NCBI GenBank assembly: GCA_016936175.1
Contig: JAFGPN010000010.1
Span: 1-33,600, forward strand
DNA from: Patescibacteria group bacterium
Lineage (GTDB): Bacteria; Patescibacteriota; Kazan-3B-28; UBA10110
DNA: 33,600 bases
Direction of reading: 5' to 3'
The position numbers and the translations under genes are program-made. This document shows, one piece after another, positions 1 to 31,671 of this stretch. The notes beneath the pieces were generated by a model. It saw only the letters and a list, made by a program, of their open reading frames with translations. It had not been told where the DNA came from and made no database searches. How positions within the stretch are numbered: position 1 is the stretch's first letter; every line of letters starts with the position of its first letter.

Positions 1-639
1 GTCGGCACTGCTGCCACCCAGCCACCACTTGTCACTGCCAAACGGCTCTAGCGCCAACTCTACGGGCAGTATCTGGCCAGAAGGATAGTTAATCTCCGGG
101 ATAGCACCCAACCATGGCACTGGGCAGGTGTTGTCTGCGGGCGTTTCAAAGTTAAGCAAAGAGTCAATCTTAAATGGCTCGCTAACGCCAAGGTCGATGG
201 ACTCGTTGCCCGACCTGGCATTCAGCCACACTTCGCTAAGCGCACCGAACTCGCAGTACCCATCGTCATGAATAGGCTCCCAGGCCAGGGAGACACCACC
301 GAACCCGATAAGGATATCGTCGTAAATGTGATACTCGATCGGATCACCAACAGGAGGCTCGCCAACCAACACGATGTCGAAGTAGCCGCTTAGCCCGGCG
401 AGGTCCACATTCATGGCATAGCCGTTGCCCCAATAAACAGTGGATCCACTGTGAGGTGACACTATCTCAATTGTGACATTAGCGGCTTGAGCTAGCTGAA
501 TAGTGGTGGCGTTATAGACCATCGCTCCCGTGGCGATAACCGCAAAACTTAGGGCAATTGCTAAATGCACCGACCACCCACCGCGCTGTGGGCGGGGCTC
601 TCGAACGGCCTGACTAATTTGAGTGATTAGGTTTTTCAT
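1..639 (-). CDS. Hypothetical membrane-anchored/secreted protein, truncated by the window start (C-terminus missing)
   Basis: Minus-strand ORF open from ATG at 639 to position 1, absent from the ORF track because it has no stop in the window. Starts MKNLITQISQAVREPRPQRGGWSVHLAIALSFAVIATGAMVYNATTIQLAQAANVTIEIVSPHSGSTVYWGNGYAMNVDLAGLSGYFDIVLVGEPP..., with one N-terminal TM/signal segment. Confidence 0.8.
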   Translation of the reverse strand, partial: MKNLITQISQAVREPRPQRGGWSVHLAIALSFAVIATGAMVYNATTIQLAQAANVTIEIVSPHSGSTVYWGNGYAMNVDLAGLSGYFDIVLVGEPPVGDPIEYHIYDDILIGFGGVSLAWEPIHDDGYCEFGALSEVWLNARSGNESIDLGVSEPFKIDSLLNFETPADNTCPVPWLGAIPEINYPSGQILPVELALEPFGSDKWWLGGSSAD

Positions 640-645
640 TTTGTT

Positions 646-951
646 TTATAAAACCGGGGGTTGTAAAGTCAGCCGACCTTGACTGTCGACATAGATCGAG
701 CCAGTTGGTGTAGCATAAGCATCTCCGTAAAAGAAGTGAGTGGGATCATTATTCCCCCCACTCCCGTTGAGGATGATTTGGCGTTCGTTAGCTTTGGTGC
801 CAAATGAGCGCAGTAGATTACCAATCTGTTGGTTAAACAGCACGACTGCAATTACGGCCAAGCCCACAAAAATAGCCAGACCTATACGGAAAGCCCGGCT
901 TCTCCACCAGTACACCTTGGAAACGGTTGGGTTGTACAACTCCTCCAGCAT
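646..951 (-). CDS. Hypothetical single-TM small protein
   Basis: 101 aa ORF with TM segment AFRIGLAIFVGLAVIAVVLF, adjacent and co-oriented with the 1..639 CDS. Confidence 0.6.
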   Translation of the reverse strand: MLEELYNPTVSKVYWWRSRAFRIGLAIFVGLAVIAVVLFNQQIGNLLRSFGTKANERQIILNGSGGNNDPTHFFYGDAYATPTGSIYVDSQGRLTLQPPVL

Positions 952-13505: not shown

Positions 13506-13534
13506 TTGACATTTTAGGCAAAAAGTAGTATAAT
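13506..13534 (+). promoter_or_regulatory. Perfect consensus sigma70-type promoter
   Basis: TTGACA (13506-13511), 17-nt spacer, TATAAT (13529-13534); ATG of the first array gene at 13551. Confidence 0.85.
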
Positions 13535-13550: not shown

Positions 13551-15296
13551 ATGTCAAATAAAAAGCAAAAACTTTTGGCTTATGGGGTGTTGGTTGGAGC
13601 GCTGGCGGGAGCGGTGCTTTTTGGCTGGTTAACTCTGCCGATTGCTCGAGGGATAAACGGCATACCCAAACAGATCAGGTATCAACCACCGACAGGAGAG
13701 CAGTTGATCACCACCAGTCAGGACGCCACGATAAAAAATGATACCGAGTTCGAATATCAAGGTCATCGATATCGATTAGACATTCAGATCGATCAGCCCA
13801 ATATCAGCCCCCTAGCCGGCTCGTTTATTACCGGTACAATTCAACTATTAAAAGATGGCTCCCGAACCTCCGAGGTGCCGGATTTCATGATCAACTCACG
13901 AGCAGGAATCAGTTCTGGCACCCCGCGCGATATCCCAACCGTACTGGTCAACCTCAATGCTCTTAACCAACAGATGCAGTTTGGCTCGCTACCTAACTCT
14001 TCCCGGCTAAAGATCGACGACCAAACTTACTGGTTGGGGAGTGATAGTATGTTCAGTTGGGGCCGAATTATTGGGATAGGCTTTACTCGAGACGGCAAAC
14101 CCAGCCGTAGCGGCCCATATCTATATACCGCGTGGGATAAAGTATTTATCTCACCCCAAGCGCTTGATACGGCTGGGGTATTAGATCTTTCCAGTGGTCA
14201 GGCAAAATTTAAGTACCAGACTAACGGTACTCGGGTGGCTTCGTACCTGGAGTTGGCGGTTAGCTCTTATGATAACAAGATGCAGTCCAGTCGGCGGGTG
14301 AATTTTCAGGATGCCCGTAAGGTAACCGTCCCTCAGCCCAGCAGTAACTCCGGGACATCTGATGTCTATTACGAAGTGGTTACCTCTGAACCTAAGCTGA
14401 CAGCCAACCAAACCCAGCGTTTTTCCATTGGTGTGGTTGCTCGCAAAGCTAACGGTAGTATTAACGAAGACCCCACTCAGCGAGTTCGGTTAATGGTGAT
14501 GCCTTCTTCGACCGTATTTTTGCCTGCCGCTACCCAGGCCAATTGGAGTCCCAGCGCAGATTCAAACCTAAATATCACCGGTACCATCCAAATCAGTACC
14601 GCTGGAAAGTTTATCGAGACCGATGAGACAAAATACAAATACGGGTCTAATCTGGATCACAGCGGCGAGATAAGAACCCCCACCGACAAAGACCCAACTG
14701 CGATCTATTTGGACCTAATAGATGGCAAGGCTACCGCAGATTTTGAATACAACGGCCGACCTGGCCCCCTGCCCTATTTAGCCATCACCGCTCAGCCGGC
14801 TGATTTCTTTGTCCCCTACAAAGATTGGAACACCAGTCCTTCCGCTCTGCCAGACTTTAAAAACCATATGTGGGACGACCTGATCAAGCGATGCGAAGAG
14901 AACAACACCTGTCCGACCTGGTATGCAGATGAACGAGCTTATGTTAACTCGCCTGATTATCATCGCGAAGCGGCTGGGATTACTTATCCTCCATTGCCTG
15001 GGCATACTGACGAACCTAATCCTCGGATTCAAAGTAATTTTAGTGTCTATCCCTACTCTGCGTCTAATTCAGAAGCTGAATATTTTTTGTATCAAAACAA
15101 ATGGCACACTCGAGCCGAATTTACCGATCTGGTTATCGGGGCTACCTCCATTAAACTACTGTCTATCAGCTCAGGCGCTGGTTCTTCGATACAATGGGCT
15201 TGGTGGTGGTTTATGTCTTTACAGATAGTTCAGCTACTAATTTGGTTAATCAGAGTGATTATCGAAAAACGTAAACAAAACCATGGAAACGCCTAA
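13551..15296 (+). CDS. Tandem surface-protein family, member 1 (N- and C-terminal TM)
   Basis: Shared motifs GHRYRLDIQIDQPNISPLAGSFITGTIQLLKDG, ISPQALDTAG, YYEVVTSEPKLTANQ...DPTQRVRLMVMP, IYLDLIDGKATADFEYNGRPGPLPYLAITAQPADF; C-terminal TM plus basic tail IEKRKQNHG. Confidence 0.85.
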   Translation: MSNKKQKLLAYGVLVGALAGAVLFGWLTLPIARGINGIPKQIRYQPPTGEQLITTSQDATIKNDTEFEYQGHRYRLDIQIDQPNISPLAGSFITGTIQLLKDGSRTSEVPDFMINSRAGISSGTPRDIPTVLVNLNALNQQMQFGSLPNSSRLKIDDQTYWLGSDSMFSWGRIIGIGFTRDGKPSRSGPYLYTAWDKVFISPQALDTAGVLDLSSGQAKFKYQTNGTRVASYLELAVSSYDNKMQSSRRVNFQDARKVTVPQPSSNSGTSDVYYEVVTSEPKLTANQTQRFSIGVVARKANGSINEDPTQRVRLMVMPSSTVFLPAATQANWSPSADSNLNITGTIQISTAGKFIETDETKYKYGSNLDHSGEIRTPTDKDPTAIYLDLIDGKATADFEYNGRPGPLPYLAITAQPADFFVPYKDWNTSPSALPDFKNHMWDDLIKRCEENNTCPTWYADERAYVNSPDYHREAAGITYPPLPGHTDEPNPRIQSNFSVYPYSASNSEAEYFLYQNKWHTRAEFTDLVIGATSIKLLSISSGAGSSIQWAWWWFMSLQIVQLLIWLIRVIIEKRKQNHGNA

Positions 15297-17010
15297 CCCA
15301 AATATGCCTATTAAGCCGGCGAAGCGAAGTAAGTTGCCTCGCAAGTTTTGGCTGATTGCTACCCCAGTAGTATTAGTTTTGGTCATCGGCAGTGGATGGC
15401 TGATTAAATCACAACAAACTCAATCGGCCTGCGTCGTTGGTCAGCCCGGTAAGGTCTACGGCCAACCACCGGTGGTAAAACATCAGTATGCCGAAGAAAC
15501 TTTAGAATACCGCCTACGTTCTAATGGCCAGTTTGTACCGATCGACGAAACTCTGGTGGCCAAAACCGCCTCGCACGAATACAGCCTAAAAGTTAGCTTT
15601 GATCAGCCATATGTTAATCCCCGGTTTGGCTCTAAAACTACAGGCAAACTTGAACTACTGGAAGACGGACAGCCAGTCACCGAACCGCCCAAAGATGAGC
15701 AGGGTAAACTGGTCTTCCAGAATCTGTCGGTGCCGGTTAGTCTGTATGGAGCCTTGATCAAAGCGCCCCCAGAATTAGATCCCACCAAATACAAATTTAA
15801 CTGGTGGCCGTCACAGTTGGCTGGCAGTGGTGATTTTAGCGTAATCCCGGTATTGGATCACCAAATTCCGTATCCGGTAACTAACATCTATGCACCGGGC
15901 GGAGTAGGTAAAGCGTACTCCCAATACCAAGGTTGGTCTATCGATCTATCTAAAGGTTGGGCAGAGTTTGAGTTCAATTATTTTGGCTTGCGCTATTCGC
16001 CCTACTTACAATTGGTGTTTGGCACACCTTATTTTTACCAAACCGAAGGGGTTAGTCGCGTGGCAGGAAAAACCGATATGAACGTGGGTAAAACACTGTG
16101 TTTTGCGGATCAGGTTAGCTCCAATATTCCCAAGGTTATCGATAATCTATCCCAGCAGACTAGAACCGATTTCTATTACGATGTTAAAACCACACCGGTT
16201 CAGTTGGCCAATAGCAAAACTACCCGGATAAAGATAGAAATAACAACCCGGGATGCTAAAACTAACAGGGTCGATACTAATCCGTTCCAAAGGGTAGAGA
16301 TAAACGCTGTTTCGTTAGGGCAAGCTAAGATCGAGCCCGTTATGGTTGGTGGTGCTACCACTTCTAAATTAACCCGACCTCAAGTTGTTTATCAACCCAG
16401 AGGGAAATTTGTGTTAACCGATCCGGCCGTGCCAGAGATCGAACAGTTAATGTTGTTACAAACGGCCAGCAACAAAGACGACTACACTTATTACGGTGCC
16501 GGCCCCGAGGGGACCATATTCACAGACCTAGTCAACGGTAAAGCCACTGTTTACTATGATTTTACCGGTACTGATGATGCGCTAAATACACCCCTAACCT
16601 TTGTGGTGCAACCAACTAATTTCGAGTTAAAAACCTCTACTTATGGCGCCAACCAAGGTAACCAGATCAGTGCCACTTCTAACCGAAGTAAACAGAATCT
16701 GCAACTTCCAGACAAACCAGCTCCGTTTATCGGCGAATCCGCTAACCCTCGGCTCAACACACCCGATCTGCCCACAAGCCCGAAACCAGATTTTCTTTAC
16801 CGGACTTGGCAGACCGATGAGATTAGAGAGCTAACCTACGCCGTTTATCCGATACCGGTTGGGGAGGCCTCGGGCAGTTGGTGGAGCAGAGCGATTGCAC
16901 AACTGGCGATCTGGCAGATTTTGATAATTCTATTCGGAGGTCTGACGCTCGCCTGGCAATTACGCAAACAAAAAAACAAAAACAAAATTGAAGATGCTCA
17001 AACCAAATAA
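15283..17010 (+). CDS. Tandem surface-protein family, member 2
   Basis: SHEYSLKVSFDQPYVNPRFGSKTTGKLELLEDG, FYYDVKTTPVQLANSKTTRIKI...TNRVDTNPFQRVEI, FTDLVNGKATVYYDFTG...LTFVVQPTNF, DFLYRTWQTDEIRELTYAVYPIPV, C-terminal TM. Confidence 0.85.
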   Translation: METPNPNMPIKPAKRSKLPRKFWLIATPVVLVLVIGSGWLIKSQQTQSACVVGQPGKVYGQPPVVKHQYAEETLEYRLRSNGQFVPIDETLVAKTASHEYSLKVSFDQPYVNPRFGSKTTGKLELLEDGQPVTEPPKDEQGKLVFQNLSVPVSLYGALIKAPPELDPTKYKFNWWPSQLAGSGDFSVIPVLDHQIPYPVTNIYAPGGVGKAYSQYQGWSIDLSKGWAEFEFNYFGLRYSPYLQLVFGTPYFYQTEGVSRVAGKTDMNVGKTLCFADQVSSNIPKVIDNLSQQTRTDFYYDVKTTPVQLANSKTTRIKIEITTRDAKTNRVDTNPFQRVEINAVSLGQAKIEPVMVGGATTSKLTRPQVVYQPRGKFVLTDPAVPEIEQLMLLQTASNKDDYTYYGAGPEGTIFTDLVNGKATVYYDFTGTDDALNTPLTFVVQPTNFELKTSTYGANQGNQISATSNRSKQNLQLPDKPAPFIGESANPRLNTPDLPTSPKPDFLYRTWQTDEIRELTYAVYPIPVGEASGSWWSRAIAQLAIWQILIILFGGLTLAWQLRKQKNKNKIEDAQTK

Positions 17011-20000
17011 CAAATTACGCAATCTCCTGATCATAATCGGACTAGTAGCGGCTAGCGCTGGTTTGGCGTGGTGGTATTTGGCTAAGCCCGCTATTAGCGG
17101 GATCACCCCTCCCCCACCAGTTCATGCTTATGATGGCGAGAACAATCTTAAATACGCCCTACGACGCGGCAGTTACGTTCAGCAAGATGAAACTCGTTCA
17201 TTTATCGTAAACGGCAACACCATAGAACTGCAGTTAACCTTCGACCAAAACTATATCAGCCCAGCCATCGGGAGTTCGGTCAAGGGAACAATACGCCTAC
17301 TAGTTAATGGGAAGGTGTCAGATGTATGGCCTGCTGGATTTAACCCTAACGAATGGGCGACGGATGGTAAAAATCCGCGAGTATATCTAACCACCTACGG
17401 TACTTATAGCTGGGCCTGCCCCACTTCACAGCTTTTATATGCTCAGGCAAACACAAATAGCTCTAATCCAGTTAACTACGTTGAGTACTGCTATCCTGGC
17501 TTGGACTACACCGCCGTTACCAACTACGATCGGCCGTATGTTTCTTCGGCGATCTATTCACCCCAAGCCTCCAGTGTATTGGACAGGTTTGGTAACACCA
17601 TCACCACCCAGTTGGAGTTGATAGATGGCAAAGCTGAGTTCGAGTTTATCTATCGCAGTGGACGATATGCGCCTTATGTGGAGTTCGAAACATTTGCATC
17701 ATTGGATCAAAAAGTCTATTCCAGAAAGATTCTGAAGTTCCAGGACCAGATATCGCCGAATATTGATACACCCCAAGTATCAGCCAGTGCTGGCCCATTA
17801 AAGTACGACCTGCAGTTTTCGACCACTCAAGTTGAACCAGAACAGCCTCAGATAATTCAGGTTAAGGTAACCTCCGTTGACGTCACCACACAAACCATTA
17901 AAACAGACCCCTATCAACGAGTAAGGTTATGGACGTATCCCTTGGCTTACTACGCTCAATACGCCCAAATTAACCGGGTACTGTTTGAATGGCCGTGGTT
18001 AACTGGCGGGCTATTAGAAAAAGCCGGTGATTGGCTGGGCTATTCCGGACAAGTCGCCAACATCTCCACCACACCAGAGATTATCACCAGCAATCAGATA
18101 CACAAGGCTTTGATCTATCCCGGTAATCAATATATCGAGTTGGACCTTATTAACGGTGAGGCAACGGGTTACTTTGCCTATAACGGTAAGTACCGCTCGG
18201 TATCGCCCCAGCTTATCTTTGTGGCTCAGCCGGTCAGCTTTGATTTTGAGCCGATAGTTAACCCCGACCTCAACACTAACCCCGGCGCTGGAGGTCGCGG
18301 TGGCGGCGCCGGTGCCGAAAGTGTTCGCTATGCCGAAGAGTTGCCGGCGCGACCGGATGACGAGTTAAACGCCGACGGGGTTCAAATCTTTTCGCGCACC
18401 AAACAATCGGACTATAATTTTTTGTATATTACTTGGTTTAAATCCGATCTGTTAGCTCAGACGGTTTATAGTGTCCATTCTCTCCCGATTGCTCACGGCG
18501 CTTCAGTTGCCCTGCCCATTGCAATCACCGCCAGAATGTTGTGGCTATTGATCGCCTTTATTCTGTTGCAGGTCACCCAGATCCTGATCGGCGGATTTAT
18601 GATATTTTTCAAATCACGCCGCAAACAAAAAATAGCTACGCCAACCACTATTAAAAAGAGCTGGCTTAAGCGACTAAGCGGATGGCTATTGATTAGCGCC
18701 ATGGCCAGCCTGTTAATTTATAGCGCTTTTAATTTTCCCGGATACGATCTGCTACAAACTCCATCGGAGCCGGTAATTCAAACCTTGCCTACTCCGACAG
18801 AAAAGGCGACCACTAAATCCGGACATTCGTTTGTAATCGAATTTGATACTGACAAGTTAAACCCTTATCCGGGCGGTGTATCACATGGCCGAATTAGGGT
18901 GGTGGATAATAATAATCAGACCGTACCGGTTCAGGGAGTTGCTCAACTTACTTCAGGTTTTGCTACCACTAATGCGATTGACGAGGACTCTAGATATCTT
19001 CCAGATTATTTTGGCGAACTAACCGGTCGCGAGATGGTAACCAAGGACGTGATCGAACAAGGTATCTGGGAGCTCCGCACCGAGAAGGATTACACCGAGG
19101 TAGATAAACTCAAAGAAGAGCTTAAGCACGACGCCAATGCTATCGGTGAGATGGCTAAAGATGCCGGAGTCGGCGGTGGCGGGGAAGCTCTCTATGCCGC
19201 CTTAGGAAAGGTGTTGGAAGATTGGGCAGATGATGTAGTAGTTCCGGTTGAGATCAAGCCCGCCAGTTATGCAATTAAGCCTGGTTGTAGTGTTATCCCG
19301 GGGGGCAGTCGAATAGCTACCCCGTTTAGTGAAATAGGCACCTGTGGTTTAGCCTTAACCCTGCGTAACGGAGAAGCTGAGTTTACTTATATCAACCATG
19401 CTCAACAGTACGGCTACGTTACCTTCCGGGTTACCGCCGTTGAGAATTCAGTTGAACAGTTGGCGATGTACGACCCGGCTAACTATCAAACTAAGCCCGG
19501 CGATGTTGCTCCGGAACTTATTCTTAGCACACCGTGGTTGTTAGATGAGCGAACTGCGGCTTCAGCATTTGCCTCATTACCTTATACCGATCAGGCTACT
19601 ACACTAACTACCCGTCAATCGTGGGCATTTGGTGATTATCGTGATTTCTCGCCGTCAGCCGAACTGGTCAGCACTCAAACTAAATTGGACTATTACTACC
19701 AAATAAAGACCAGTCCTTCTCGCCAAGGCCAAATTATCATAACTATTACGCCCAAAGCCTTACCCAACCGAGTCGTCCCCTATAACGCGACTAATCGGGC
19801 TCGCTTAAGTGTGGCGGCCGGATTCGATCCAACCGAGGTGTCTAAACTAAAAAATCAGTGGTCAAACAGTAATGCAGACAACGAATACGTTGACCCGCCA
19901 GAGAACTTGGGTCAGACCTATCCGGTGAGGTTACTTACGCCCGGTAATAACACACCGGTTACAGAGCTAACCTTTGATATCGGCAACCAACCAATCAAGA

Positions 20001-20386
20001 TTCAGGCCGAGTTAACCTCTCAGGCCAACTTACTGCCCTACATCGGATTAAATATGGAGGTATGGAGTGCCAAAGGGGTACCAGCCGAACTGAAATTCGA
20101 AGACATCCAACGCAAGTCATTAGGCGCTCGCTCTGTTCCAACCCAGGGCGGATACACGCTAAAGCCAGTGGATCCGAGTATCTACCGCACAGAGACTCCC
20201 AGAACAATGGTAATAAAAACTAACCTGTCCTTAGATGTCAGTAAAAGTGAGTGGCTGCCGTCACCCTCTCGTGTTGGTCAGTTGTTTGTTGCTCAGCAGA
20301 TTGCTGGTCTAATTTTAATCCTGATAATATTAATTTGGAGACGGGTGAAAATAAAAAGAAATGCTAAACAAAAAACTACGGCGTAA
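16994..20386 (+). CDS. Tandem surface-protein family, member 3 (double-length: two paralogous units fused through an internal TM-loop-TM)
   Basis: First unit NTIELQLTFDQNYISPAIGSSVKGTIRLLVNG...TIKTDPYQRVRLWTYP...IELDLINGEATGYFAYNGKYRSVSPQLIFVAQPVSF...DYNFLYITWFKS. Then TM, basic loop SRRKQKIATPTTIKKSWLKRL, TM. Second unit HSFVIEFDTDKLNPYPGGVSHGRIRVV...YYYQIKTSPSRQGQIIITI. The ATG at 16994 is preferred over the TTG at 16988. Confidence 0.85.
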   Translation: MLKPNNKLRNLLIIIGLVAASAGLAWWYLAKPAISGITPPPPVHAYDGENNLKYALRRGSYVQQDETRSFIVNGNTIELQLTFDQNYISPAIGSSVKGTIRLLVNGKVSDVWPAGFNPNEWATDGKNPRVYLTTYGTYSWACPTSQLLYAQANTNSSNPVNYVEYCYPGLDYTAVTNYDRPYVSSAIYSPQASSVLDRFGNTITTQLELIDGKAEFEFIYRSGRYAPYVEFETFASLDQKVYSRKILKFQDQISPNIDTPQVSASAGPLKYDLQFSTTQVEPEQPQIIQVKVTSVDVTTQTIKTDPYQRVRLWTYPLAYYAQYAQINRVLFEWPWLTGGLLEKAGDWLGYSGQVANISTTPEIITSNQIHKALIYPGNQYIELDLINGEATGYFAYNGKYRSVSPQLIFVAQPVSFDFEPIVNPDLNTNPGAGGRGGGAGAESVRYAEELPARPDDELNADGVQIFSRTKQSDYNFLYITWFKSDLLAQTVYSVHSLPIAHGASVALPIAITARMLWLLIAFILLQVTQILIGGFMIFFKSRRKQKIATPTTIKKSWLKRLSGWLLISAMASLLIYSAFNFPGYDLLQTPSEPVIQTLPTPTEKATTKSGHSFVIEFDTDKLNPYPGGVSHGRIRVVDNNNQTVPVQGVAQLTSGFATTNAIDEDSRYLPDYFGELTGREMVTKDVIEQGIWELRTEKDYTEVDKLKEELKHDANAIGEMAKDAGVGGGGEALYAALGKVLEDWADDVVVPVEIKPASYAIKPGCSVIPGGSRIATPFSEIGTCGLALTLRNGEAEFTYINHAQQYGYVTFRVTAVENSVEQLAMYDPANYQTKPGDVAPELILSTPWLLDERTAASAFASLPYTDQATTLTTRQSWAFGDYRDFSPSAELVSTQTKLDYYYQIKTSPSRQGQIIITITPKALPNRVVPYNATNRARLSVAAGFDPTEVSKLKNQWSNSNADNEYVDPPENLGQTYPVRLLTPGNNTPVTELTFDIGNQPIKIQAELTSQANLLPYIGLNMEVWSAKGVPAELKFEDIQRKSLGARSVPTQGGYTLKPVDPSIYRTETPRTMVIKTNLSLDVSKSEWLPSPSRVGQLFVAQQIAGLILILIILIWRRVKIKRNAKQKTTA

Positions 20387-22190
20387 AAAAATTATTATTG
20401 GGATATTTATCTTACTGGCTATCGCCGGCGCGATGTTAGCATGGCGTTATTTAATGCCGAGTAACGGTGCCTGGGAGAAGACCTTCCCCTTAGCCCAAAC
20501 TACCGAGCATAGCTATTCCCTGAGGGTAAAGTTAGAGAGACCACTTTATTACGTCGCAGTACCAGCGGCGGTTCAGGGCACGATTGAAGTGCTGCGAGAC
20601 GGGGTCTCATTGGCCGATCTAACGGCCGACCCAGATGGAAGAACCGGGGTTAACTTTGTAGCCATTAGCTATATTGATGGCTACATGCGTCCAACGGCCC
20701 TTTACGAGGCGGCGGGCATAGATAAATATAATTCGCGAGATTTTGACCCCACAATCAAACTATCGATCACCCCCCACCAGGCGCCCACCAAGGCCAAAGC
20801 CGGCAACTACCGCCTAATGAGTTACGCCTACTCTGCCCAGGCCTTAAAAGAGTGGCAGTACGATTACAAAAACCAAACCGATAAAATAACCGGCAACCTA
20901 ACCTTTGACCGCGGCTTTGCCCAATTTGGTTATCTTTATGGCGATGCGGCTCCCGGCTCGGTGGTGGATTTTCACATCGAGGTATTGCTTAGTGGCAAAC
21001 CAATTGTGATAGACCACCCAATTGAATTTACTCAACGACCTAATTGGAACACTCGGGTTTATCGCCAATCAACCGAAGGAATCTATTATGATGTTACGCT
21101 AACACCGTTCTTGCGCAAAGTCCGTTACTTGCCCACCGAAGATGGCATGGCGATAGATGCCGATGCTGGCGTAAGAACTCGGATAGAAAAAGCAGTTAGG
21201 GTTAAAGTTATCGCGCGCAATTCTGTAACCGGCAAGATTGAAACCAATCCATTCCAACGAGTAAAACTGAGTGTATTGCCACTGTTCTTGGTTAGCGACA
21301 GCGCCACTCCCACACCAATCGAATATCCAGGCCAGCTGACTTATCAGGGAGTCTCGCGCTCAGAGCAGTTGCCAGAATACTGGAAGCAGATCTTGAGCGA
21401 CCCTTATGGCGAGGGCATAACAGATCCCGACGAAATGGCGTACTGGGACAACACCAGTATGGTCAGAGAAGATGATGTCTACCTATCCCGACTACTGTCC
21501 GCCAACGGCCTGGTAGAGGGGTTGAGCCTGTTCAATTTTGGCTTTGATCCGACCTTCTGGTTCTCTTATCGCAATATCCCAGCCGAATATCTAAATGCCC
21601 AACCTCGAGTGCAGATCGATCTTGATCTGATCAACGGCCAAGGCGAGGCGCTGTTCTTGCCTAACAGTAAATACGGCGATAAAGATGTTTTAAGAGAATA
21701 CATGGTCCAAAAAGGATTAGATGATAAAACTGTGGAACAGGAGCTAACCAAAGCAGAGATCAACGATCAACTTAAGAACTTTGTTTGGCCGAAGGTAGTG
21801 ATGACAGTTCAGCCTACCGACTATCACCTGGTAGGCTACCAGTCCTGCGGTAGTGATAGTGGGGTAGATCAATACAGCGATCGAGCACTGCCCGATATGA
21901 GCTTCCGCGAACAGGCCGATATCCAATGCCCCGCTCTGCCCAGTAGCGACTATCATTTCTTAAACCGAACCTGGCACAAAGACAGTAGCTTGGTCAGTCA
22001 GCGATACACCGTAGTTCCACTAACCCCGGATATGCTATCTAGGGCAGAGCGCTCTTTGCCAGCACCAAACCGGCTTTGGTCAATTATTTGGTTAGCGATT
22101 ACCTCGCAGTTAGCGCAACTGATTTTAGGAATCACCCTGATTATAGTAATTAGCAGGCGTCAACGTGGAAGAAAATCGCTTAAAGCATAA
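20361..22190 (+). CDS. Tandem surface-protein family, member 4
   Basis: EHSYSLRVKLERPLYYVAVPAAVQGTIEVLRDG, IYYDVTLTPF...VTGKIETNPFQRVKLSVLP, QIDLDLINGQGEALFLPNSKYGD...VVMTVQPTDY, DYHFLNRTWHKDSSLVSQRYTVVPLT, C-terminal TM. Confidence 0.85.
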   Translation: MLNKKLRRKKIIIGIFILLAIAGAMLAWRYLMPSNGAWEKTFPLAQTTEHSYSLRVKLERPLYYVAVPAAVQGTIEVLRDGVSLADLTADPDGRTGVNFVAISYIDGYMRPTALYEAAGIDKYNSRDFDPTIKLSITPHQAPTKAKAGNYRLMSYAYSAQALKEWQYDYKNQTDKITGNLTFDRGFAQFGYLYGDAAPGSVVDFHIEVLLSGKPIVIDHPIEFTQRPNWNTRVYRQSTEGIYYDVTLTPFLRKVRYLPTEDGMAIDADAGVRTRIEKAVRVKVIARNSVTGKIETNPFQRVKLSVLPLFLVSDSATPTPIEYPGQLTYQGVSRSEQLPEYWKQILSDPYGEGITDPDEMAYWDNTSMVREDDVYLSRLLSANGLVEGLSLFNFGFDPTFWFSYRNIPAEYLNAQPRVQIDLDLINGQGEALFLPNSKYGDKDVLREYMVQKGLDDKTVEQELTKAEINDQLKNFVWPKVVMTVQPTDYHLVGYQSCGSDSGVDQYSDRALPDMSFREQADIQCPALPSSDYHFLNRTWHKDSSLVSQRYTVVPLTPDMLSRAERSLPAPNRLWSIIWLAITSQLAQLILGITLIIVISRRQRGRKSLKA

Positions 22191-23766
22191 AAAATATCTG
22201 TTAGCTCTTGGATTGATCGCCTTGTTAGTGGTGGTAAGTTTAGGCGTCGCTTTAAACCCAGGCGGTCGGGCCTGGCTGGTGCGGACCTGGCAATCCATCG
22301 TAGGTAATCGACAGAAAGCCGGTAGTTTTAGTGAGCTGTTTCCACCCGAAGGTCAGCTAACAACCCAGGCATTAACCGTGGATGGCCACGTTTATCGGTT
22401 AAAGATCAGCGCCGACAAAAAACAACTGGTTCCCCTGCCGGGCGAAAGCGCTAACTTCGATATCCAATTGATGGAAGGTGGCCGAACGCTAAGCTCCCTG
22501 CCGTCACCGCTGGCCAAAAATGCTAAGGCCCAATCGCCCACTCTGCAGGTCAAAATAACAGGCGTGGCCAACATCTACGAGAACGATGCCGACCATCCAC
22601 CAGTCAGCACTACTCGTTTGCCGGGTGCAGGCGCCTATATATATTCACCGCAGGCAACGGACAGGTTTAGTTATCCATATAAAAAAGATACCTTAGAAGC
22701 CACCTTAGATTTTGGCTCTGGCAGTGCACAGATTAATTATTTGTATGGCGGTGGCAAGATTAAAGATCGGATCACCCTTCAGGCTACTGCCATATTTTAC
22801 GATGGGCAGATAAAACAAGGCGCAGAGCTACCCTTTGCCGACGAAAAGATCATCGCCACATCCAAAAAAATTCCCCCTCCCCAGTATCTTAAGAAAGACG
22901 TGTGCTATCAAGTCGCCTTCGCGCCAGCTCGGGTAGATACCGAGAAAGAAGTAAACGTAAAACTGACTGTTAAGTCAATCGATTCTAAGACTGGTCGAGT
23001 CGATACCAATCCCTACCAGCGAGTTCGGATAGAGCTTTGGCCGATGCGCGCATTTTATGCTTTTTCTGAGGCTCGATTCGAAGAGGCCGGCAAATTTTTA
23101 ACAGCCTCTCGTTTGGCCATACCGGCATCGTTGGGCGGCACTACGCTGGGCGGGTATTCTTATGATCCAGAAACCGGCGAAAGAATTTCACCAGCATTAG
23201 GACACCCTAATACGGATAATCCTGGAATTCTTAGTAGTATTTATTGGTATTTGGTTGAGGGGGCTAATAGCTTTACTGCCAAAACTTCGACAGAGGCCGA
23301 TAAAAAAACCCTAACCTGGTTAGACCAACAGATCATTAATTACCAAGAAGATTATCTGTCTAATGTTTACACCGAAAAGCAGATGGCCGATTACTTGGCA
23401 TCAATGGAGCTACTGCCCACCCACATCAACTACGCCGAGTTGGACTTAGTAGACGGTATTGGTGAGGTTTATTTCCGCTACTCTGGTAATGTTGGAGCCG
23501 TACCTTACGTAACCTTTGTTATCAGTCCGGTTGATTTTATGTCTCTCAACGCAGGGAAATTCCCCTACTGCGATAGTGATGACGAATATTGGAGTGGTTA
23601 TTATCTGCCAGCTAATAATCATCGCAACGATTCAAATTTTTGTATGGTTCGTCGAATGAAGACCAGCCAACCGCAGGCTTTGTATAAATCCTGGATGCTG
23701 GAAGATGATTTTAAAAAACTTCAACGGCAGATCCAAACCGTTACCTATTTACCTGTTGATCGATGA
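22165..23766 (+). CDS. Tandem surface-protein family, member 5 (GTG start; no C-terminal TM)
   Basis: DGHVYRLKISADKKQLVPLPGESANFDIQLMEGG, AYIYSPQATDRFSYPYKK, CYQVAFAPARVDTEKEVNVKL...TGRVDTNPYQRVRIELWP, AELDLVDGIGEVYFRYSGNVGAVPYVTFVISPVDF, ends TVTYLPVDR*. Confidence 0.83.
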   Translation: MEENRLKHKKYLLALGLIALLVVVSLGVALNPGGRAWLVRTWQSIVGNRQKAGSFSELFPPEGQLTTQALTVDGHVYRLKISADKKQLVPLPGESANFDIQLMEGGRTLSSLPSPLAKNAKAQSPTLQVKITGVANIYENDADHPPVSTTRLPGAGAYIYSPQATDRFSYPYKKDTLEATLDFGSGSAQINYLYGGGKIKDRITLQATAIFYDGQIKQGAELPFADEKIIATSKKIPPPQYLKKDVCYQVAFAPARVDTEKEVNVKLTVKSIDSKTGRVDTNPYQRVRIELWPMRAFYAFSEARFEEAGKFLTASRLAIPASLGGTTLGGYSYDPETGERISPALGHPNTDNPGILSSIYWYLVEGANSFTAKTSTEADKKTLTWLDQQIINYQEDYLSNVYTEKQMADYLASMELLPTHINYAELDLVDGIGEVYFRYSGNVGAVPYVTFVISPVDFMSLNAGKFPYCDSDDEYWSGYYLPANNHRNDSNFCMVRRMKTSQPQALYKSWMLEDDFKKLQRQIQTVTYLPVDR

Positions 23767-24761
23767 GGAAAAAATATATAAACAGATCATTAATTGTTAG
23801 CTTGGTCGCGATTGGCGCTACCATTATTTTGTTAGCAACCATCCGGTCGATCTATTCTGGTGTGGCCGGCGCACAGACCCCAACCGCTACAGAGGCGGCT
23901 AAAAATTCTCAGCTGGCCCGCCGGGTAAAAGGCGAAGTATACTACGATGTTAGTTTCTCTACCGGGCAGGTTAGCCGAGGCAAAGAAAAAAGATTTAATA
24001 TTACTGTAACGGCCATTAACAGCCAAACCGGTAAGGTAGACAAAAATCCCTTCCAGCGCGTACAAATAATCGCTCTGCCAGTCGAAGTGTCGAAAACCGA
24101 ATCGGGCAACGATTTGTGGACACCACCGGGCACCTTTACCCCTAACATAGTTAGTGGTAAACCCTCAGTCTATGCCGAACACTCTGGGGGATATTCCGAA
24201 GCGATGCCTCCGGGGGAGCTGTGGCCGGTCAGCAATTTTGATCTGATTGATGGAACGGCTACGGTCAGCTTTTCAGCAACTAATACCCCTAAAACCGATG
24301 CCTATATGGGATTTATGGTTACCCCAGCCAGTTGGGCTTTTTCCTTTCAACCGTACAGCAATACCCGTATCTCTGAGGCTTATCGATTTACCCTAAAGGG
24401 TCCTCGTCAACCAAGCGGCTATAAATTTTTATACAAAGAGTGGCAGGTGGATAACACAATGGCTGAGCATATCTTTACTATCGCCACCCTGCCGGTCGAT
24501 AACGCCCCACACCAATCGATAATGGAATTGGGCAGTTGGCAACCCGAAACTAAACTGCCAGACTACCAGCCGCAAAACGATGTGGCTCAAAATATAGTGG
24601 TGCCGCCTGCCGCCAACCTTACCCCACCAATTTATGACAACCCCACCATAGCTCGCTCCCGGCTATCCTTTTGGCTGTGGCTAATTGGTTCCTTAATCGT
24701 TTTAGTTGCCGGCGGGTTGTGGTGGCTGACCAGAAAAAATAGCTCTCACAAAGCTAAATAA
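23763..24761 (+). CDS. Tandem surface-protein family, member 6 (C-terminal half-unit only, with N- and C-terminal TM)
   Basis: VYYDVSFSTGQVSRGKEKRFNITV...TGKVDKNPFQRVQIIALP, FDLIDGTATVSFSATN...YMGFMVTPASWAF, GYKFLYKEWQVDNTMAEHIFTIATLPV, C-terminal TM. Confidence 0.83.
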   Translation: MRKKYINRSLIVSLVAIGATIILLATIRSIYSGVAGAQTPTATEAAKNSQLARRVKGEVYYDVSFSTGQVSRGKEKRFNITVTAINSQTGKVDKNPFQRVQIIALPVEVSKTESGNDLWTPPGTFTPNIVSGKPSVYAEHSGGYSEAMPPGELWPVSNFDLIDGTATVSFSATNTPKTDAYMGFMVTPASWAFSFQPYSNTRISEAYRFTLKGPRQPSGYKFLYKEWQVDNTMAEHIFTIATLPVDNAPHQSIMELGSWQPETKLPDYQPQNDVAQNIVVPPAANLTPPIYDNPTIARSRLSFWLWLIGSLIVLVAGGLWWLTRKNSSHKAK

Positions 24762-24852: not shown

Positions 24853-25533
24853 GTGGCGTTATTTAACAAGTTACTGCTCCCCAGAGCAGTATTCAGCGTG
24901 GTCATTCTGCTGATACTCTTCACCGGCTGTGGCCAGAAGAAGCCCGGCATCTACATCAACAACCGGAAGGTTCCGATGACAGATGTGCATTTCAGCCCGG
25001 ATGGGACCTTTCGTATTCCCCGAAGATACCCTGTGGTTGCCGAAGGAGATAAAGTCATCATTACCACGGTTGAAGAGCGGCTTGTGAACAAGCAACTCTA
25101 TCAGCATTTTGGGTGGACGGTCACTCTGAAGGAGAACGGCACAGAAACTATCATTGTTGGGCCAAACAAGCCCAATGATCCACGCTTTCTGGATGAGGAG
25201 GGTTTTATCTATAACCTACACGGGCCGGACGACCCCAATAACCGACGTTTCCTAGACATCGCATGGTCGTCTCCAGTTGGGTATACCGGCAATTCAATCA
25301 GCGGACTGTTTACTGCAACACCACTAGGGGATGGAAGGTACAGGATAGACACATCCACCTACGAACCATATAAATATCTCGGGGATGCCTATAGGATAAC
25401 CACCCCGCGTCAATCAGGTGATCCAAGATCTGACTATGGTCAAGTTGCTGAGTATCACCATCTCCGCAAAGGGGTATACATCATACCAGAAATCGGGGCA
25501 ATTGACTGGGGAGTAATCATCGTGGTTAAGTAA
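24853..25533 (+). CDS. Putative lipoprotein, paralogue 1 (GTG start)
   Basis: SD GGAGGTGAT; VVILLILFTGCGQKKPGIYINNRKVP gives lipobox LFTGC; shared motif FRIPRRYPVV. Confidence 0.8.
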   Translation: MALFNKLLLPRAVFSVVILLILFTGCGQKKPGIYINNRKVPMTDVHFSPDGTFRIPRRYPVVAEGDKVIITTVEERLVNKQLYQHFGWTVTLKENGTETIIVGPNKPNDPRFLDEEGFIYNLHGPDDPNNRRFLDIAWSSPVGYTGNSISGLFTATPLGDGRYRIDTSTYEPYKYLGDAYRITTPRQSGDPRSDYGQVAEYHHLRKGVYIIPEIGAIDWGVIIVVK

Positions 25534-25548
25534 ACACTGCAAAAAGCG

Positions 25549-25582
25549 AAACCACTCGCCTGGCGACCGAGTGGTTTTTTTA
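25549..25582 (+). terminator. Rho-independent terminator
   Basis: AACCACTCG (25549-25557) / CGAGTGGTT (25568-25576) perfect 9-bp stem followed by a T-run. Confidence 0.88.
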
Positions 25583-25611
25583 TTGACCTACCGCTAAATG
25601 AATGGTAGGTT
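25583..25611 (+). promoter_or_regulatory. Putative promoter with dyad spacer, lipoprotein cassette 2
   Basis: TTGACC (25583-25588) - N17 - TAGGTT (25606-25611); CCTACC (25587-25592)/GGTAGG (25604-25609) inverted repeat. Confidence 0.4.
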
Positions 25612-25647
25612 GCAGGTGTTTCCACGACTTTTCTGGAGGTGATTAAC

Positions 25648-26256
25648 GTGGCGACCTTTTACAACTTACTGCTCAGAGGAGTGGTATTCATCGTGGCCGT
25701 TCTGCTGGTGCTCTTTACCGGCTGTGGTCAGAAGAAGCCCGGCATCTACATCAATGGCCAGCGCATCCCACTGGAGAAGATTAGCTACGATGCGAGTAAC
25801 CTTACGATGACTATTCCAACTGGTTACCCCAGCGTTAAGTCTAGAGAACTAATCGAGGTAGCAGTGGTGAAAGGCGAGATGCTCCGAGAAGAGTTGCTAC
25901 AACTCTCAGGATCAGTACCAGATCCGGCAGTGGCCGATTCCTGGGTACATCCTGTTGACACACCCTTCTCCTTTTACGGAGATGAGGCGGCTGATCAGAT
26001 GGAGTTTGAGATAGTAAAGACACTATCTCAGCAGAAAATCCGTTGGGAGGGGCCTATAACTATGACTGCCCTATCCAGCGTCCAATATCAGGTAAAGTTC
26101 GACCTATACGACTCGAAGCAATACCTGTGGGATTTTTCAAAATCGAGCCCCAAGGGAGACGGATACGATTTCACCTACGTGTTTCCTGAGGGGCTACCTG
26201 CTGGCGCCTATGCTTTTCGCGCCTCGTATTTTCTCCCCCTTATCATTGTGAGGTGA
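25648..26256 (+). CDS. Putative lipoprotein, paralogue 2 (GTG start, track start 25639 is upstream)
   Basis: SD GGAGGTGAT before GTG 25648; VAVLLVLFTGCGQKKPGIYINGQRIP gives lipobox LFTGC; shared motif MTIPTGYPSV. Confidence 0.78.
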   Translation: MATFYNLLLRGVVFIVAVLLVLFTGCGQKKPGIYINGQRIPLEKISYDASNLTMTIPTGYPSVKSRELIEVAVVKGEMLREELLQLSGSVPDPAVADSWVHPVDTPFSFYGDEAADQMEFEIVKTLSQQKIRWEGPITMTALSSVQYQVKFDLYDSKQYLWDFSKSSPKGDGYDFTYVFPEGLPAGAYAFRASYFLPLIIVR

Positions 26257-26261
26257 ACAAG

Positions 26262-26870
26262 ATGAAACTTCTGAGCATCCTGATGTCGTTGATTATTTTG
26301 GTTGCTTGTTCTAAGGAGCCCCCGGCACCTGCTCAGCTCCCAGGCGACCTCTACTGTGGCAGCAAGTTATCCGCCTTGCTACAGGTGAAGTTTGAGCAGG
26401 ATCTGACCTTCAGCATACCCGAGAATTATCCCACAGTCCGATCCAATGAGTACTGCAGTATAGCGGTTGACGAGGTGAAGGCGGTCAATCAAAAGATCTT
26501 TACCCATTTCGGTTTCAAGCAGACACCGGGCTGGCGAGAGATCAAACAACGTCGCATCCCTTGCTACGCCCAGGATCTGGTTGAAGAAGCCATCATGACA
26601 GCCAACCCCGAGATTAACACAATCACAATACCGATTGAGGCGGTACTGCCCACCAAACAGCTACCAGATGGCCGTTACCAGATTGATGTCAGCAACTACG
26701 ATCCGGGGCGCTATTATCCAGATGTTATGGGAACCAAGTCTGAGGGTAGCTCCAACGTTGACATAATCCTCACGTGGAAGGAGGGACTACCACCCGGAGT
26801 CTATGTCGTCACTTCCTCTTTGTTGGCGATCTGGGCAACTGTCCCCATCGTGGTGGAGGAATCTCCGTAA
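26262..26870 (+). CDS. Putative lipoprotein, paralogue 3
   Basis: SD GAGGTGA before ATG 26262; MKLLSILMSLIILVACSKEP lipobox LVAC; shared motif FSIPENYPTV. Confidence 0.75.
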   Translation: MKLLSILMSLIILVACSKEPPAPAQLPGDLYCGSKLSALLQVKFEQDLTFSIPENYPTVRSNEYCSIAVDEVKAVNQKIFTHFGFKQTPGWREIKQRRIPCYAQDLVEEAIMTANPEINTITIPIEAVLPTKQLPDGRYQIDVSNYDPGRYYPDVMGTKSEGSSNVDIILTWKEGLPPGVYVVTSSLLAIWATVPIVVEESP

Positions 26871-26941: not shown

Positions 26942-27994
26942 TTACTGAATAGTTAGCTCGGCCGAGAACGGCAACAACCGCACCAAGCTACCGCCAGAAC
27001 TGCCATCCGGCACTAAACTAACAACTAACTTGTTGTATCCGGAGAGGTCGCGCTTAGTAGTAAAGTTGCTCCGCGCTCCACCGCCAACTGCATTAAACAC
27101 TCCTAAGGGTGTCGTGGCATCGACCAATGGCCCGTTCATCTTGGCTAACCAACCCTCAAACTTCCAGCCATAGGCCGATAGTTCTGCGTCATCAAGATTA
27201 TTAAGACTAATCCCGACACTTATCGTGTCTTTATCATCCCCTTGGCTAAACGAAGCCTGGCCAGTAGCGGAGCTCAAATCTAATGGGAATTTTAGCACTG
27301 CCACCCCGGAACCCAAATTGCCATCTAGTACTACCCCGCTCATGCCACCCCCAGTGCTTTCAACCGACTGCAATACTATCCTTAGTCGGTTATAGCCAGT
27401 GGTATCACCAATATCAAAATTGGCGATTGGCATGCCATCATCACTGCTGGCAGGATATCCATCAGCATCCATGTAGAACCGATAAAGATCAATTGCCTCT
27501 TCTAGTTCGGTTCCATTCAATTTAGCTAATTGAATGCTGTAGGCGTAATAATCTGGATCAACGATCGGTAGGTTAACATCTTCGAAGGTTAATGTGCTCC
27601 CGCTGATTCTAACCACCCCGCTCGGAATGGTTGATGCCCGGTAAACGATACTAACGGCAGAGGTTCTAATATTCTTCCCGGAGAGAAGTGTGGTAGTTAT
27701 ATTGCGATGTGTAAACCAATAGTAACCTCCCGCGACCAAGGCTAAGATTATTATTAGTATTAACCAGCCCACCCACTTTCTGTTCCGTTTCTTGCCCCCC
27801 TTACCAGTTGATGGGGTTATCCCTAAGCTTGTTTTGGTAGTGTTCATCGAATTAGATAGAGCCGTTGTTAAATTTTTGACTGTAGTGGTAGTAGCCCGAC
27901 TAAGCTGACTCGCCACCGGCAACATTTTATTACTACCCGTAGATGTGGCAGGAGACTTAATTTGGCCACTAGTTTTTTTGATAGGCTCGACCAT
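26942..27994 (-). CDS. Single-TM protein with two RskA-C-like (anti-sigma-K C-terminal type) extracytoplasmic modules
   Basis: TM WVGWLILIIILALVAGGYYWF. Repeated modules IQLAKLNGTELEEAIDLYRF...YNRLRIVLQSVES...VLDG and FEGWLAKMNGPLVDATTPLGVFN...DLSGYNKLVVSLVPD. Family assignment is by pattern only. Confidence 0.55.
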   Translation of the reverse strand: MVEPIKKTSGQIKSPATSTGSNKMLPVASQLSRATTTTVKNLTTALSNSMNTTKTSLGITPSTGKGGKKRNRKWVGWLILIIILALVAGGYYWFTHRNITTTLLSGKNIRTSAVSIVYRASTIPSGVVRISGSTLTFEDVNLPIVDPDYYAYSIQLAKLNGTELEEAIDLYRFYMDADGYPASSDDGMPIANFDIGDTTGYNRLRIVLQSVESTGGGMSGVVLDGNLGSGVAVLKFPLDLSSATGQASFSQGDDKDTISVGISLNNLDDAELSAYGWKFEGWLAKMNGPLVDATTPLGVFNAVGGGARSNFTTKRDLSGYNKLVVSLVPDGSSGGSLVRLLPFSAELTIQ

Positions 27995-27999
27995 AATTT

Positions 28000-30900
28000 T
28001 TAATTGAAGATATTTCTAATCCCGTTGATTAAAATAGTAACGATATTAACCGCGGCGCCGGCAACCGCTTGTCCGGTATCGGCCATTGCACCGCTAATAT
28101 TAAACAGCGAACTTATCGAATTAAGCTGAGTGGTTGGTCCCAACAAGTTACTGCCAGAACCGCTACTGCTACTACCGGATGAACTACTACCCGAACCACT
28201 AGAGCCACTGTTGGTGATGGGTTTGCCAGAAGCATCTCGTTGTTGGCGAGTTCCGTCGGCATAAAAACTGGTCTGTTCGTAGTCGCCAGCCTGACGGTAG
28301 TTACTAATTGAGGAATCTGGCCGATTCCAGCTACCTGCCTCATCAATCAACCAGTCTAAAGCGCTCCAGTTGCCCTGCTTGGCCGCTTCGCCAGCTTGCT
28401 TGGCAGCTTTTTTAAACCGCTCGCTTTTATTATCATCACGATAAATCCTATCCATATATATATCCATACCCAAATCTCCCAGTGCGTCATAAGCTTCTTG
28501 ATACTCTGGATCGGTTTGAGGGACAGGGTGGGTACCAGAACCCGCTAAACCATTACGGATGATCTGCCGCACGTTCCCCAGACCATATTTGTCTCCATAA
28601 CCAGTTTGAGTGGCGATCTTATCTAATTCAGCCTTTATTTTGTCCTTATTTGTCTTACTAAGAAACGAAAAATCTTTGACTCGATTCCAAATATCGTTAG
28701 CTGACGATTGCATATTGGTGCCTTGCAGAGGGGCATTGGGATCAAACTCAAACTCCTGGGTGTTAGTGTTGTTATCATTATCAGAGCTGGTTCCCTCTGG
28801 CAAAACCTTGCCGTTGTAAGGTACAGGATTTTTTTTATTGGTAGCAGAACCAGCGGTGTAGCGGATCTCCACTACCTTCAACCAGACAAACGATCCTTCG
28901 GGTACTCCCGTAGCACTAGACACCGTAATTTTTGCATCTTCTCCCTTAATAGATAGTTCCGGGAGTTTCAGTACTGGCTTTGTACTATTCCCAATATAGT
29001 AGCGTATATTTGAATCGCTCGTGTCGCCTATAACGTACACTTTAAGATACATATCACTTAATCGACTTTCGGCTTCGATCACTTTATTGCGATCGATCGA
29101 AACCGTGAAACGATTGTCTGATTTGCCACCCGCAATATCAGGATCCGCCACATCCCGTTTGATTTCAATTTTGTTCGCTAAATCAAGGATCTCGGCTTCA
29201 ATTTGGTTCAAATCCTTCCCCTCATTGAGATCGGTTGCCTTTTTGATGGTGACATCCACATATCGCCACTGCTCAATATCGACCTGGTTAACATTTTTCC
29301 CCTCTATGTGAATATTTATCCGAGCACTTCTAGAGCTAGTGGCTGTAACCGGATAAACCGATACAGGCAAACTCTCGCGTGACTTACCAATTGTATATTT
29401 GAGGTTATTCCCGGCATTATTACGATTACCTTTATCTACATTTACCCCCGAATCCATTGGCGCATGAACGATTAGTGTAGCGGACCCCGAAACCTTGTCC
29501 GGATTTTTCAGCGAAGCGGTGATGGTAATTTTCTGAGCAGCCGGAGCCGTTCCATCCGGGTTTAAAGTAAAACTAAGTGATCCTGGCGACACTTCTAACT
29601 CAAGCAGATCATCCGGATCGTGTATGTAATCCTCATCTCCCCCTCTTCCAGCTGAACCATCGCCAGAATCAGAACCGTCAGAACCACTGCCCGGCGAACC
29701 ATCACCAGAGCTCAGGCCACCAGTTACGCTACTTCTGCCCCCCTTAACCGTAAACGTAACCTCCGTGGGATCGGTTTCAGCATAAGTCCAGCCGTCGACA
29801 TCACTATAAAAACGATGGCGGAAACTGACGGTCGCTGACCGGCTAGATATGCCCGCAAAGAAATAGACCGTTAGCGTGCCCTTGTCATTAGTGTTGGCGG
29901 TAATCGTTTTATAAACATCCCCGCCGGTCGGGCAGTAGCTGGTTGTGCTGGTATCACATGCTACCGAGCCGCTTTTAGCGATGGTGCCGGGGGTGGTTAC
30001 CCGGGCCTCCACTGCTGCGTTCGGCACCGGTGTGCCATCGCCTCCAGTTATCGATACATCAATAGAAGCATAGCCGTTACCCTCACCACCCAGCTTATCA
30101 ATAATAGAAAAGTGATCGCGACCAGCGCTTTTGCCTCCACGCAGGTCGCTAGCATATCCGAAATAAGTGTGTTCCCCCACATTACGGGTGGGTGGGTTAA
30201 GTTCGGTGGCTCCAGCGTTAACTGCTATCTTTCGAACTCGATCGCTGGCTAAGGGATTGTTATAAGCAGTGTTAAGAGAATAGTCGGCTTCGCCTGATAA
30301 CGACTTGCCGTTGAGCGTAGCCGTGGCATCAAATTTAAGTGGGACTATACCCCCCTTGGTATTTGGTTGAAACGTGGTGGCATAATCACCATCGGCTCCA
30401 CCAATTGATTTAACAGTAGTGAACTGGCCATCCCCAAAAGTTTTGATCTTAACTGCAATCGGATTGCCGTTATAGCGTGCCGATATCTTAAGTGGGAACA
30501 TCGAGGTTTCCAGACTGGCGCTACTTTCGGAGCGGTTAACAGTTAGATCAATTGAGCCGGTCTGAGTTTGTGAGTCCCCAGAGGTATCGTTAGTGTCGCC
30601 CGGGCCTCCTTGATTGTCCTGATCCTCGCTACCAGATATCGCCTCCTCGGACGATGGCATCCCTTGGTCGAAGCGAATAGTAGTTGTTTCGCTAGTATTG
30701 TTTCGAGAGCGACCGCCACTATCGTTTGATAAATCAACGTAGCCTACGGCAGTAACGGTAATCTCTCTGTCACCCCTCGGCACCATAAACTGAGCCGAGA
30801 GAAAACTACTATTTCCCGCATTTCCAGCGGTTCGGGTGGTTTTAGCTGGAGATATTTCTGCCCCGTCGCTTGTCGTTACCGATATCTCTACTGTTCCTAA

Positions 30901-31671
30901 TTGCCGATTGCCGTTATATGTCAGCGAACCACCAACACTAAACGATGTGTCATTGGCACCAATGTATTCCGGTACATTTAAAGTAACAACTACTGGATAG
31001 CTCGATTCGCTTTGGCCACCAGTTGAAGAGCCATCACCTTCACTGGCAGGCTGTTCCACAGTGTCCATTATATTCGGTTGGGCCGCCTCTTGATTATAAT
31101 CAGGGGTAGCCTCGGTATTGCGGACAATGGTGACATTGGGCGATGCCGTGGTTTCCTCCGCTTTCCATTCGGTATCTTCCGATTCGCTCTGGCCGTACGC
31201 TATTCCAACCAAGCCCCGGGCAATCGGCTGTTCAGCAGATAGCGCTAAATTTGCTACAGCGCTTATATCGACAATATCCTCAACCCGGTTGCCGGCCACA
31301 TAGGTAAACTCCGCCTTCCCGCTGGCGTCAGTTCTTAGGCCTGTTTCTCCAATCTTACCGTTCTTGTCAGGGAATAGTTCGCTACCGTTAATCCCCCTGA
31401 TCGGATAATTAGATAGAGGCTGACCGTTCCTGGTCAGTGTAGCGGTAAAAGTTATCTTATCATCGCTCTTAGCAACATCGACTACCCGCTTATCAGCCGA
31501 CAGGGTAAGACTAACCCCTTCAGTGAGCGAGTTAGTATTGGTTTGAGCCTCAGAGTCGCGATCAAAACTGGGTAGAACCAGCAAAAATAGCCCGATCAAA
31601 CAGACCAGCACCCAAACTAGTGGCGATAGGGAAAATGCCGGTTTCTTTTTTCGAGAACGAGTCTTCCCCAA
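28000..31671 (-). CDS. Large surface protein with Ig-like/Big-type domains and Ser/Gly-rich C-terminal linker (TTG start)
   Basis: N-terminal basic + TM (MGKTRSRKKKPAFSLSPLVWVLVCLIGLFLLVLP). Ig-like segments, e.g. VSLTLSADKRVVDVAKSDDKITFTATLTRNGQPLSNYPIRG and DVSITGGDGTPVPNAAVEARVTTPG...NDKGTLTVYFFAG. Linker GSSGSGSSSSGSSSSGSGS. Confidence 0.8.
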   Translation of the reverse strand: MGKTRSRKKKPAFSLSPLVWVLVCLIGLFLLVLPSFDRDSEAQTNTNSLTEGVSLTLSADKRVVDVAKSDDKITFTATLTRNGQPLSNYPIRGINGSELFPDKNGKIGETGLRTDASGKAEFTYVAGNRVEDIVDISAVANLALSAEQPIARGLVGIAYGQSESEDTEWKAEETTASPNVTIVRNTEATPDYNQEAAQPNIMDTVEQPASEGDGSSTGGQSESSYPVVVTLNVPEYIGANDTSFSVGGSLTYNGNRQLGTVEISVTTSDGAEISPAKTTRTAGNAGNSSFLSAQFMVPRGDREITVTAVGYVDLSNDSGGRSRNNTSETTTIRFDQGMPSSEEAISGSEDQDNQGGPGDTNDTSGDSQTQTGSIDLTVNRSESSASLETSMFPLKISARYNGNPIAVKIKTFGDGQFTTVKSIGGADGDYATTFQPNTKGGIVPLKFDATATLNGKSLSGEADYSLNTAYNNPLASDRVRKIAVNAGATELNPPTRNVGEHTYFGYASDLRGGKSAGRDHFSIIDKLGGEGNGYASIDVSITGGDGTPVPNAAVEARVTTPGTIAKSGSVACDTSTTSYCPTGGDVYKTITANTNDKGTLTVYFFAGISSRSATVSFRHRFYSDVDGWTYAETDPTEVTFTVKGGRSSVTGGLSSGDGSPGSGSDGSDSGDGSAGRGGDEDYIHDPDDLLELEVSPGSLSFTLNPDGTAPAAQKITITASLKNPDKVSGSATLIVHAPMDSGVNVDKGNRNNAGNNLKYTIGKSRESLPVSVYPVTATSSRSARINIHIEGKNVNQVDIEQWRYVDVTIKKATDLNEGKDLNQIEAEILDLANKIEIKRDVADPDIAGGKSDNRFTVSIDRNKVIEAESRLSDMYLKVYVIGDTSDSNIRYYIGNSTKPVLKLPELSIKGEDAKITVSSATGVPEGSFVWLKVVEIRYTAGSATNKKNPVPYNGKVLPEGTSSDNDNNTNTQEFEFDPNAPLQGTNMQSSANDIWNRVKDFSFLSKTNKDKIKAELDKIATQTGYGDKYGLGNVRQIIRNGLAGSGTHPVPQTDPEYQEAYDALGDLGMDIYMDRIYRDDNKSERFKKAAKQAGEAAKQGNWSALDWLIDEAGSWNRPDSSISNYRQAGDYEQTSFYADGTRQQRDASGKPITNSGSSGSGSSSSGSSSSGSGSNLLGPTTQLNSISSLFNISGAMADTGQAVAGAAVNIVTILINGIRNIFN

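Follow-up and report, generated by a model that had tools for sequence, protein, structure and literature searches.

The array, its promoter, and neighboring genes

The window analyzed here is a complete contig of 33.6 kb from a genome totaling 670 kb (G000). The organism belongs to the patescibacterial order holding candidate division Kazan and is a tiny, probably host-dependent bacterium. Six plus-strand ORFs (p1-p6), successively overlapping by 14, 23, 26, 26, and 4 nt, occupy positions 13551-24761; they encode six units designated type I and one more distant unit, type II, which is fused to p3. The features are as follows (TM, transmembrane helix):

13506..13534, plus strand: sigma-70 promoter TTGACA-N17-TATAAT, matching the consensus at 12 of 12 bases
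13551..15296, plus strand: p1, type I, 581 aa; N-terminal TM, two domains, C-terminal TM, and basic tail; orthologue of p1′ in genome G007
15283..17010, plus strand: p2, type I, 575 aa; orthologue of G007 p2′ (37% identity)
16988-20386, plus strand: p3, whole gene, type I half followed by type II half
16988..18712, plus strand: N-terminal half of p3, type I unit
18713..20386, plus strand: C-terminal half of p3, type II unit with its own TM and a C-terminal TM; profile homology to type I
20361..22190, plus strand: p4, type I, 609 aa; domain 2 with a long insertion
22165..23766, plus strand: p5, type I, 533 aa; both domains, without a C-terminal TM
23763..24761, plus strand: p6, 332 aa; domain 2 alone, flanked by N- and C-terminal TMs

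The preliminary description had recognized a tandem array of six genes and seven paralogous, membrane-anchored units, and this holds: the ORFs are present in this interval and the homology is far above chance.

The −10 element of the promoter ends 16 nt upstream of the p1 ATG. Perfect TTGACA-N17-TATAAT sites number 12 in the 670 kb genome, versus none for the reversed control pattern; they precede a giant surface protein (see below), the array, several other exported proteins, and some cytoplasmic ones. As the set includes cytoplasmic proteins, the promoter suggests high expression rather than a surface-specific regulon.

Another perfect promoter of this type is located at 1038-1010 (minus strand) before a small TM protein (646-951, minus strand) and a large surface protein (1-639, minus strand) that is truncated by the contig end; the G001 counterpart of the latter has 1351 aa. 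Directly downstream of the array (24853-26870, plus strand) are three paralogous genes in tandem (226, 205, and 205 aa), each with a lipobox-like start; they match each other with E values of 1e-8 to 1e-20 and have no Pfam match. On the minus strand, 26942-31671 encodes two proteins without Pfam domains, one of 350 aa with a single TM and a secreted one of 1223 aa; distant counterparts of both exist in G001 in the same order.

Sequence relationships, membrane topology, and fold

The type I units of the window share 22-28% pairwise identity (23-28% when aligned to p1), with phmmer E values of 4e-7 to 4e-24 within the set; Smith-Waterman comparison of their ectodomains against shuffled sequences gave Z = 4.8-47. 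Invariant in all six are QRV (motif C), DL..G and P (motif D), and L..W (motif E). The five motifs (A-E) originally proposed as shared are real, but they are not universal: p6 lacks A and B, and motif B is variable (FISPQA in p1, IYAPGG in p2, and AYSAQA in p4). The p5 sequence ends directly after motif E. Compared pairwise, the type II half of p3 does not clearly resemble type I (Z 0.1-5.1), and its homology, as claimed for the seventh unit, is detectable at the profile level only (hhalign probability 98.2%, E 4e-14). Reversed and unrelated profiles used as controls reached at most 2.1%, the exception being the C-terminal anchor of kelch proteins, for which the probability was 14.9% against type II and 83.7% against type I. 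A recent origin of domains 1 and 2 by duplication of one another is unsupported (hhalign 46% over 33 columns).

Hydropathy analysis places a helix at the N-terminus of each of the six proteins and, p5 excepted, another at the C-terminus, with basic residues flanking the helices on their inner sides; p3 has four membrane helices. The predicted membrane anchoring is well supported, and the initial picture of an N-terminal TM, a polar ectodomain, and usually a C-terminal TM with a basic tail is borne out, p5 being the exception. In p2, domain 1 spans approximately residues 98-277 and domain 2 residues 297-524, followed by the C-terminal TM at 536-560.

AlphaFold2 modeling, based upon an 11-sequence alignment, gave two β-sandwich domains for p2 (pLDDT 55.7, pTM 0.57) and one for the p6 domain modeled by itself (23910-24518; pLDDT 63.0, pTM 0.67), in both cases at low to moderate confidence. 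Foldseek related the two models to Ig-like or adhesin-like sandwiches (integrin alpha chains, reeler, CLIPPER, GspB, and PrgB) with TM-scores below 0.5. For domain 2 alone, the PDB matches were integrin-alpha Ig-like, reeler, and adhesin domains, at a probability of 0.99-1.00 (E 4e-5 to 2e-3). The units are likely to possess an Ig-like fold, with no specific relative implied; the assignment is uncertain because of the low model confidence and the TM-scores.

The array proteins yielded sub-threshold noise only in Pfam, NCBIfam, and PHROGs, and sequence searches of the PDB gave no acceptable match for the units, so that the family is, as first suspected, unrecorded in these curated libraries. 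Antibody light chains in the PDB matched type II weakly (E 0.0025), which is regarded as chance. The Big_1 and Invasin_D3 profiles matched none of 13 family members at E values up to 5. NCBIfam models of the GlyGly-CTERM and PGF-CTERM sorting signals gave no match at E up to 1; among the 13 members, PGF-CTERM was hit by one, at E 0.2. Phage or mobile-element proteins were also rejected as relatives: p2 found no match among phage records and p3 none among viral contigs, and the GC content of the array equals that of the remaining window.

Distribution, orthology, and two surface loci

Searched with a type I profile, four of the order's nine genomes contain the family, and 371 genomes from elsewhere in the phylum gave no hit; these counts describe the sampled genomes at the sensitivity of the search and do not by themselves prove restriction to the order. 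Type II likewise occurs in four of the nine; G001 (477 aa) and G003 (609 aa) encode it as a stand-alone protein. Two further genomes of the order have a match to the C-terminal anchor only. No array units were detected in G002, G006, or G008. A few G001 and G003 proteins contain short masked (N) stretches, which were left unaltered.

G007, a member of a different family of the order, carries five type I genes consecutively. In a maximum-likelihood tree p1-p5 each pair with their positional counterpart in G007 (UFBoot 99, 100, 96, 100, and 88), and the alignment of p3 with p3′ spans 1114 residues (E 4e-173); the nearest relative of p6 by BLAST is p5′. Gene order is conserved between these two genomes. 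This one-to-one, same-order orthology indicates that the duplications predate the family split and that positions have kept their identity. That the array copies are old and position-fixed is well supported, and it speaks against the "diversifying duplication" originally envisaged, at least of the antigenic-variation type, and favors an assembly whose positions are fixed. Interchangeable or recombining copies, the trait of antigenic variation, were not found across the two families, each species being represented by one genome. Recent transfer between G000 and G007 is unlikely, because the array identities (~28-37%) are lower than those of neighboring genes (for instance, ~47% for u781). The set is readily lost: G001, from the same genus as the window, is down to a single diverged type I gene and a single type II gene, which, together with the genomes possessing none, indicates that the proposed complex is dispensable.

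Across the order one locus (A) reads subtilase, uppP, ruvB, a MshEN protein, a giant protein bearing Invasin_D3 and Big_1 domains, a slot, a small TM protein, and tsaE/tsaB, where the names uppP, ruvB, and tsa are the author's reading of the sequences. The giant is present throughout the order, close to a subtilase gene, and a subtilase is encoded in every genome of the order. In G007 the slot, flanked by the giant and a TM protein of 106 aa, is occupied by the five-gene array; in G003 it holds a type II protein and a fusion of subtilase, kelch propeller, and type I unit; in G004 and G005, kelch proteins; and in G000 and G001, an I9/subtilase-like protein. The G003 type II protein has a weak I9 match (20.0 versus the Pfam cut-off of 21.2 bits). 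In G000 the array (contig C7) is not beside the giant (contig C5). The features with coordinates are:

L016:5684-12343, minus strand: subtilase, kelch propeller, and type I fusion, 2220 aa, G003
L052:6341-7732, minus strand: I9/subtilase-like protein, 464 aa, G000 contig C5; not recognized as a subtilase by Pfam
L052:7772-13915, minus strand: giant protein, 2048 aa, Invasin_D3 and Big_1 domains, G000 contig C5

In G000 the array lies at a second locus (B; lgt, u781, smpB, and beyond); G001 has its reduced set there, and G004 and G005 have kelch proteins with N- and C-terminal TMs. The two G001 genes adjoin two further membrane-anchored proteins, which appear β-propeller-like by eye only and have no significant Pfam match. 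Perfect promoters precede the giants, at locus A in five genomes and at locus B in six.

An HMM built from the type I and type II C-terminal anchors only, searched against 287 ORFs, found two kelch proteins (E ~1e-11) and nothing else outside the family. The G004 and G005 matches are accordingly not extra family members; they represent the C-terminal anchor of kelch proteins. Nor are the units akin to the Big domains of the giants, since hhalign to the giant's profile gave at most 0.6%. By adjacency, one fusion, and a common C-terminal anchor, the family is tied to the invasin-like giant, subtilase, and kelch propellers. It is conceivable, if rather doubtful, that the two conserved chromosomal surface loci of the Kazan order are sockets for alternative extracellular heads, with paired-Ig units and kelch propellers sharing an anchor and heads being swapped between sockets and lineages. 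If so, each lineage would receive its own attachment apparatus beside the invasin-like giants.

A candidate cell-surface complex

We regard as evenly balanced between right and wrong the proposal that the operon specifies a heteromeric Ig-like complex at the cell surface, acting with the giant and the kelch/subtilase proteins in contact and attachment. That the array products assemble into one complex is, taken separately, somewhat probable; a role in attachment is plausible, at a little below an even chance. Gene order, domain fusion, the common membrane anchor, and the common promoter type strengthen both. In the proposed arrangement the operon would encode the subunits of a single complex, and a single membrane would hold both ends of each type I subunit, the short basic N-terminal tail and the basic C-terminal tail lying inside and the ectodomain, with two Ig-like β-sandwich domains, outside. 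p3 would contribute the fused type II subunit, p5 would have lost its second anchor, and p6 would have retained domain 2 only. Overlapping frames and the single perfect sigma-70 promoter might ensure coupled, abundant expression, and the separate identities and order of the subunits, older than the split of the Kazan-order families, may reflect fixed positions in the assembly. The complex would then work with the invasin-like giant and kelch/subtilase surface proteins in contacting and attaching to other cells.

Double anchoring, fixed subunit order, a strong promoter, Ig-like domains lacking a recognizable binding module, and the adjacency of array and giant in G007 are all consistent with a structural envelope scaffold, in which the units coat or stiffen the cell and anchor the giant without binding other cells. 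This is a tentative alternative of lower probability, as several members of the order lack the units, unlike a basic coat, and the fusion and the shared slot link them to kelch and subtilase proteins that resemble interaction modules. Less probable again, and rather unlikely, is a protease-linked surface module whose units hold, mature, or are the substrate of the giant-associated subtilases. It is suggested by the type I-subtilase fusion and the possible I9 inhibitor domain on the type II protein of G003, by the I9/subtilase-like protein that adjoins the giant in G000 and G001, and by the subtilase in every genome of the order; however, the fusion is confined to a single genome, the I9 match falls under the Pfam cut-off, and the window has no protease near the array.

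Least probable, and improbable on its own terms, is an antigenically variable array in which fast-evolving or recombining duplicates vary the surface. The paralogues are indeed only 22-28% identical, and unit number varies strongly within one genus (six genes in G000 versus two in G001), but copies that pair one-to-one and in unchanged order between families speak against shuffling or gene conversion among them, and one promoter with overlapping frames favors joint rather than alternative expression.

Apart from type IV pili, host recognition in Patescibacteria is mostly unexplained, and the array operon offers a concrete candidate for contact machinery, supplying defined proteins for expression and testing. 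The papers searched on patescibacterial attachment stress type IV pili and exported proteins with Ig-like or peptidoglycan-binding domains (PMC12206443, PMC10936435, PMC13293708), and no description of this family or of a Kazan-order surface protein system was found in the text consulted. The type IV pili of Saccharibacteria (PMC12206443; review PMC13293708) are comparable as a host-attachment surface apparatus in the same phylum, whereas the array proteins have large, double-anchored ectodomains and no Pfam or NCBIfam similarity to pilins. The Ig-like domains of invasin and intimin (PF02369 Big_1, PF09134 Invasin_D3), both carried by the partner giant, are tandem extracellular β-sandwiches, as is predicted for the units, but the units have no sequence match to them and possess membrane helices at both ends in place of an outer-membrane barrel. 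The integrin alpha Ig-like, reeler, and fibrillar-adhesin CLIPPER domains are the best PDB matches by predicted fold; with TM-scores below 0.5 and 8-14% identity, the likely resemblance is one of general fold rather than of kinship. By comparison, the kelch-propeller membrane proteins of the same order (787 aa in G004, 772 aa in G005) have a β-propeller ectodomain where two Ig-like domains are predicted for the array units, yet they share the N-terminal TM, the C-terminal TM, and a homologous C-terminal anchor, and their genes lie beyond smpB, near the position of the array in the genus of the window.
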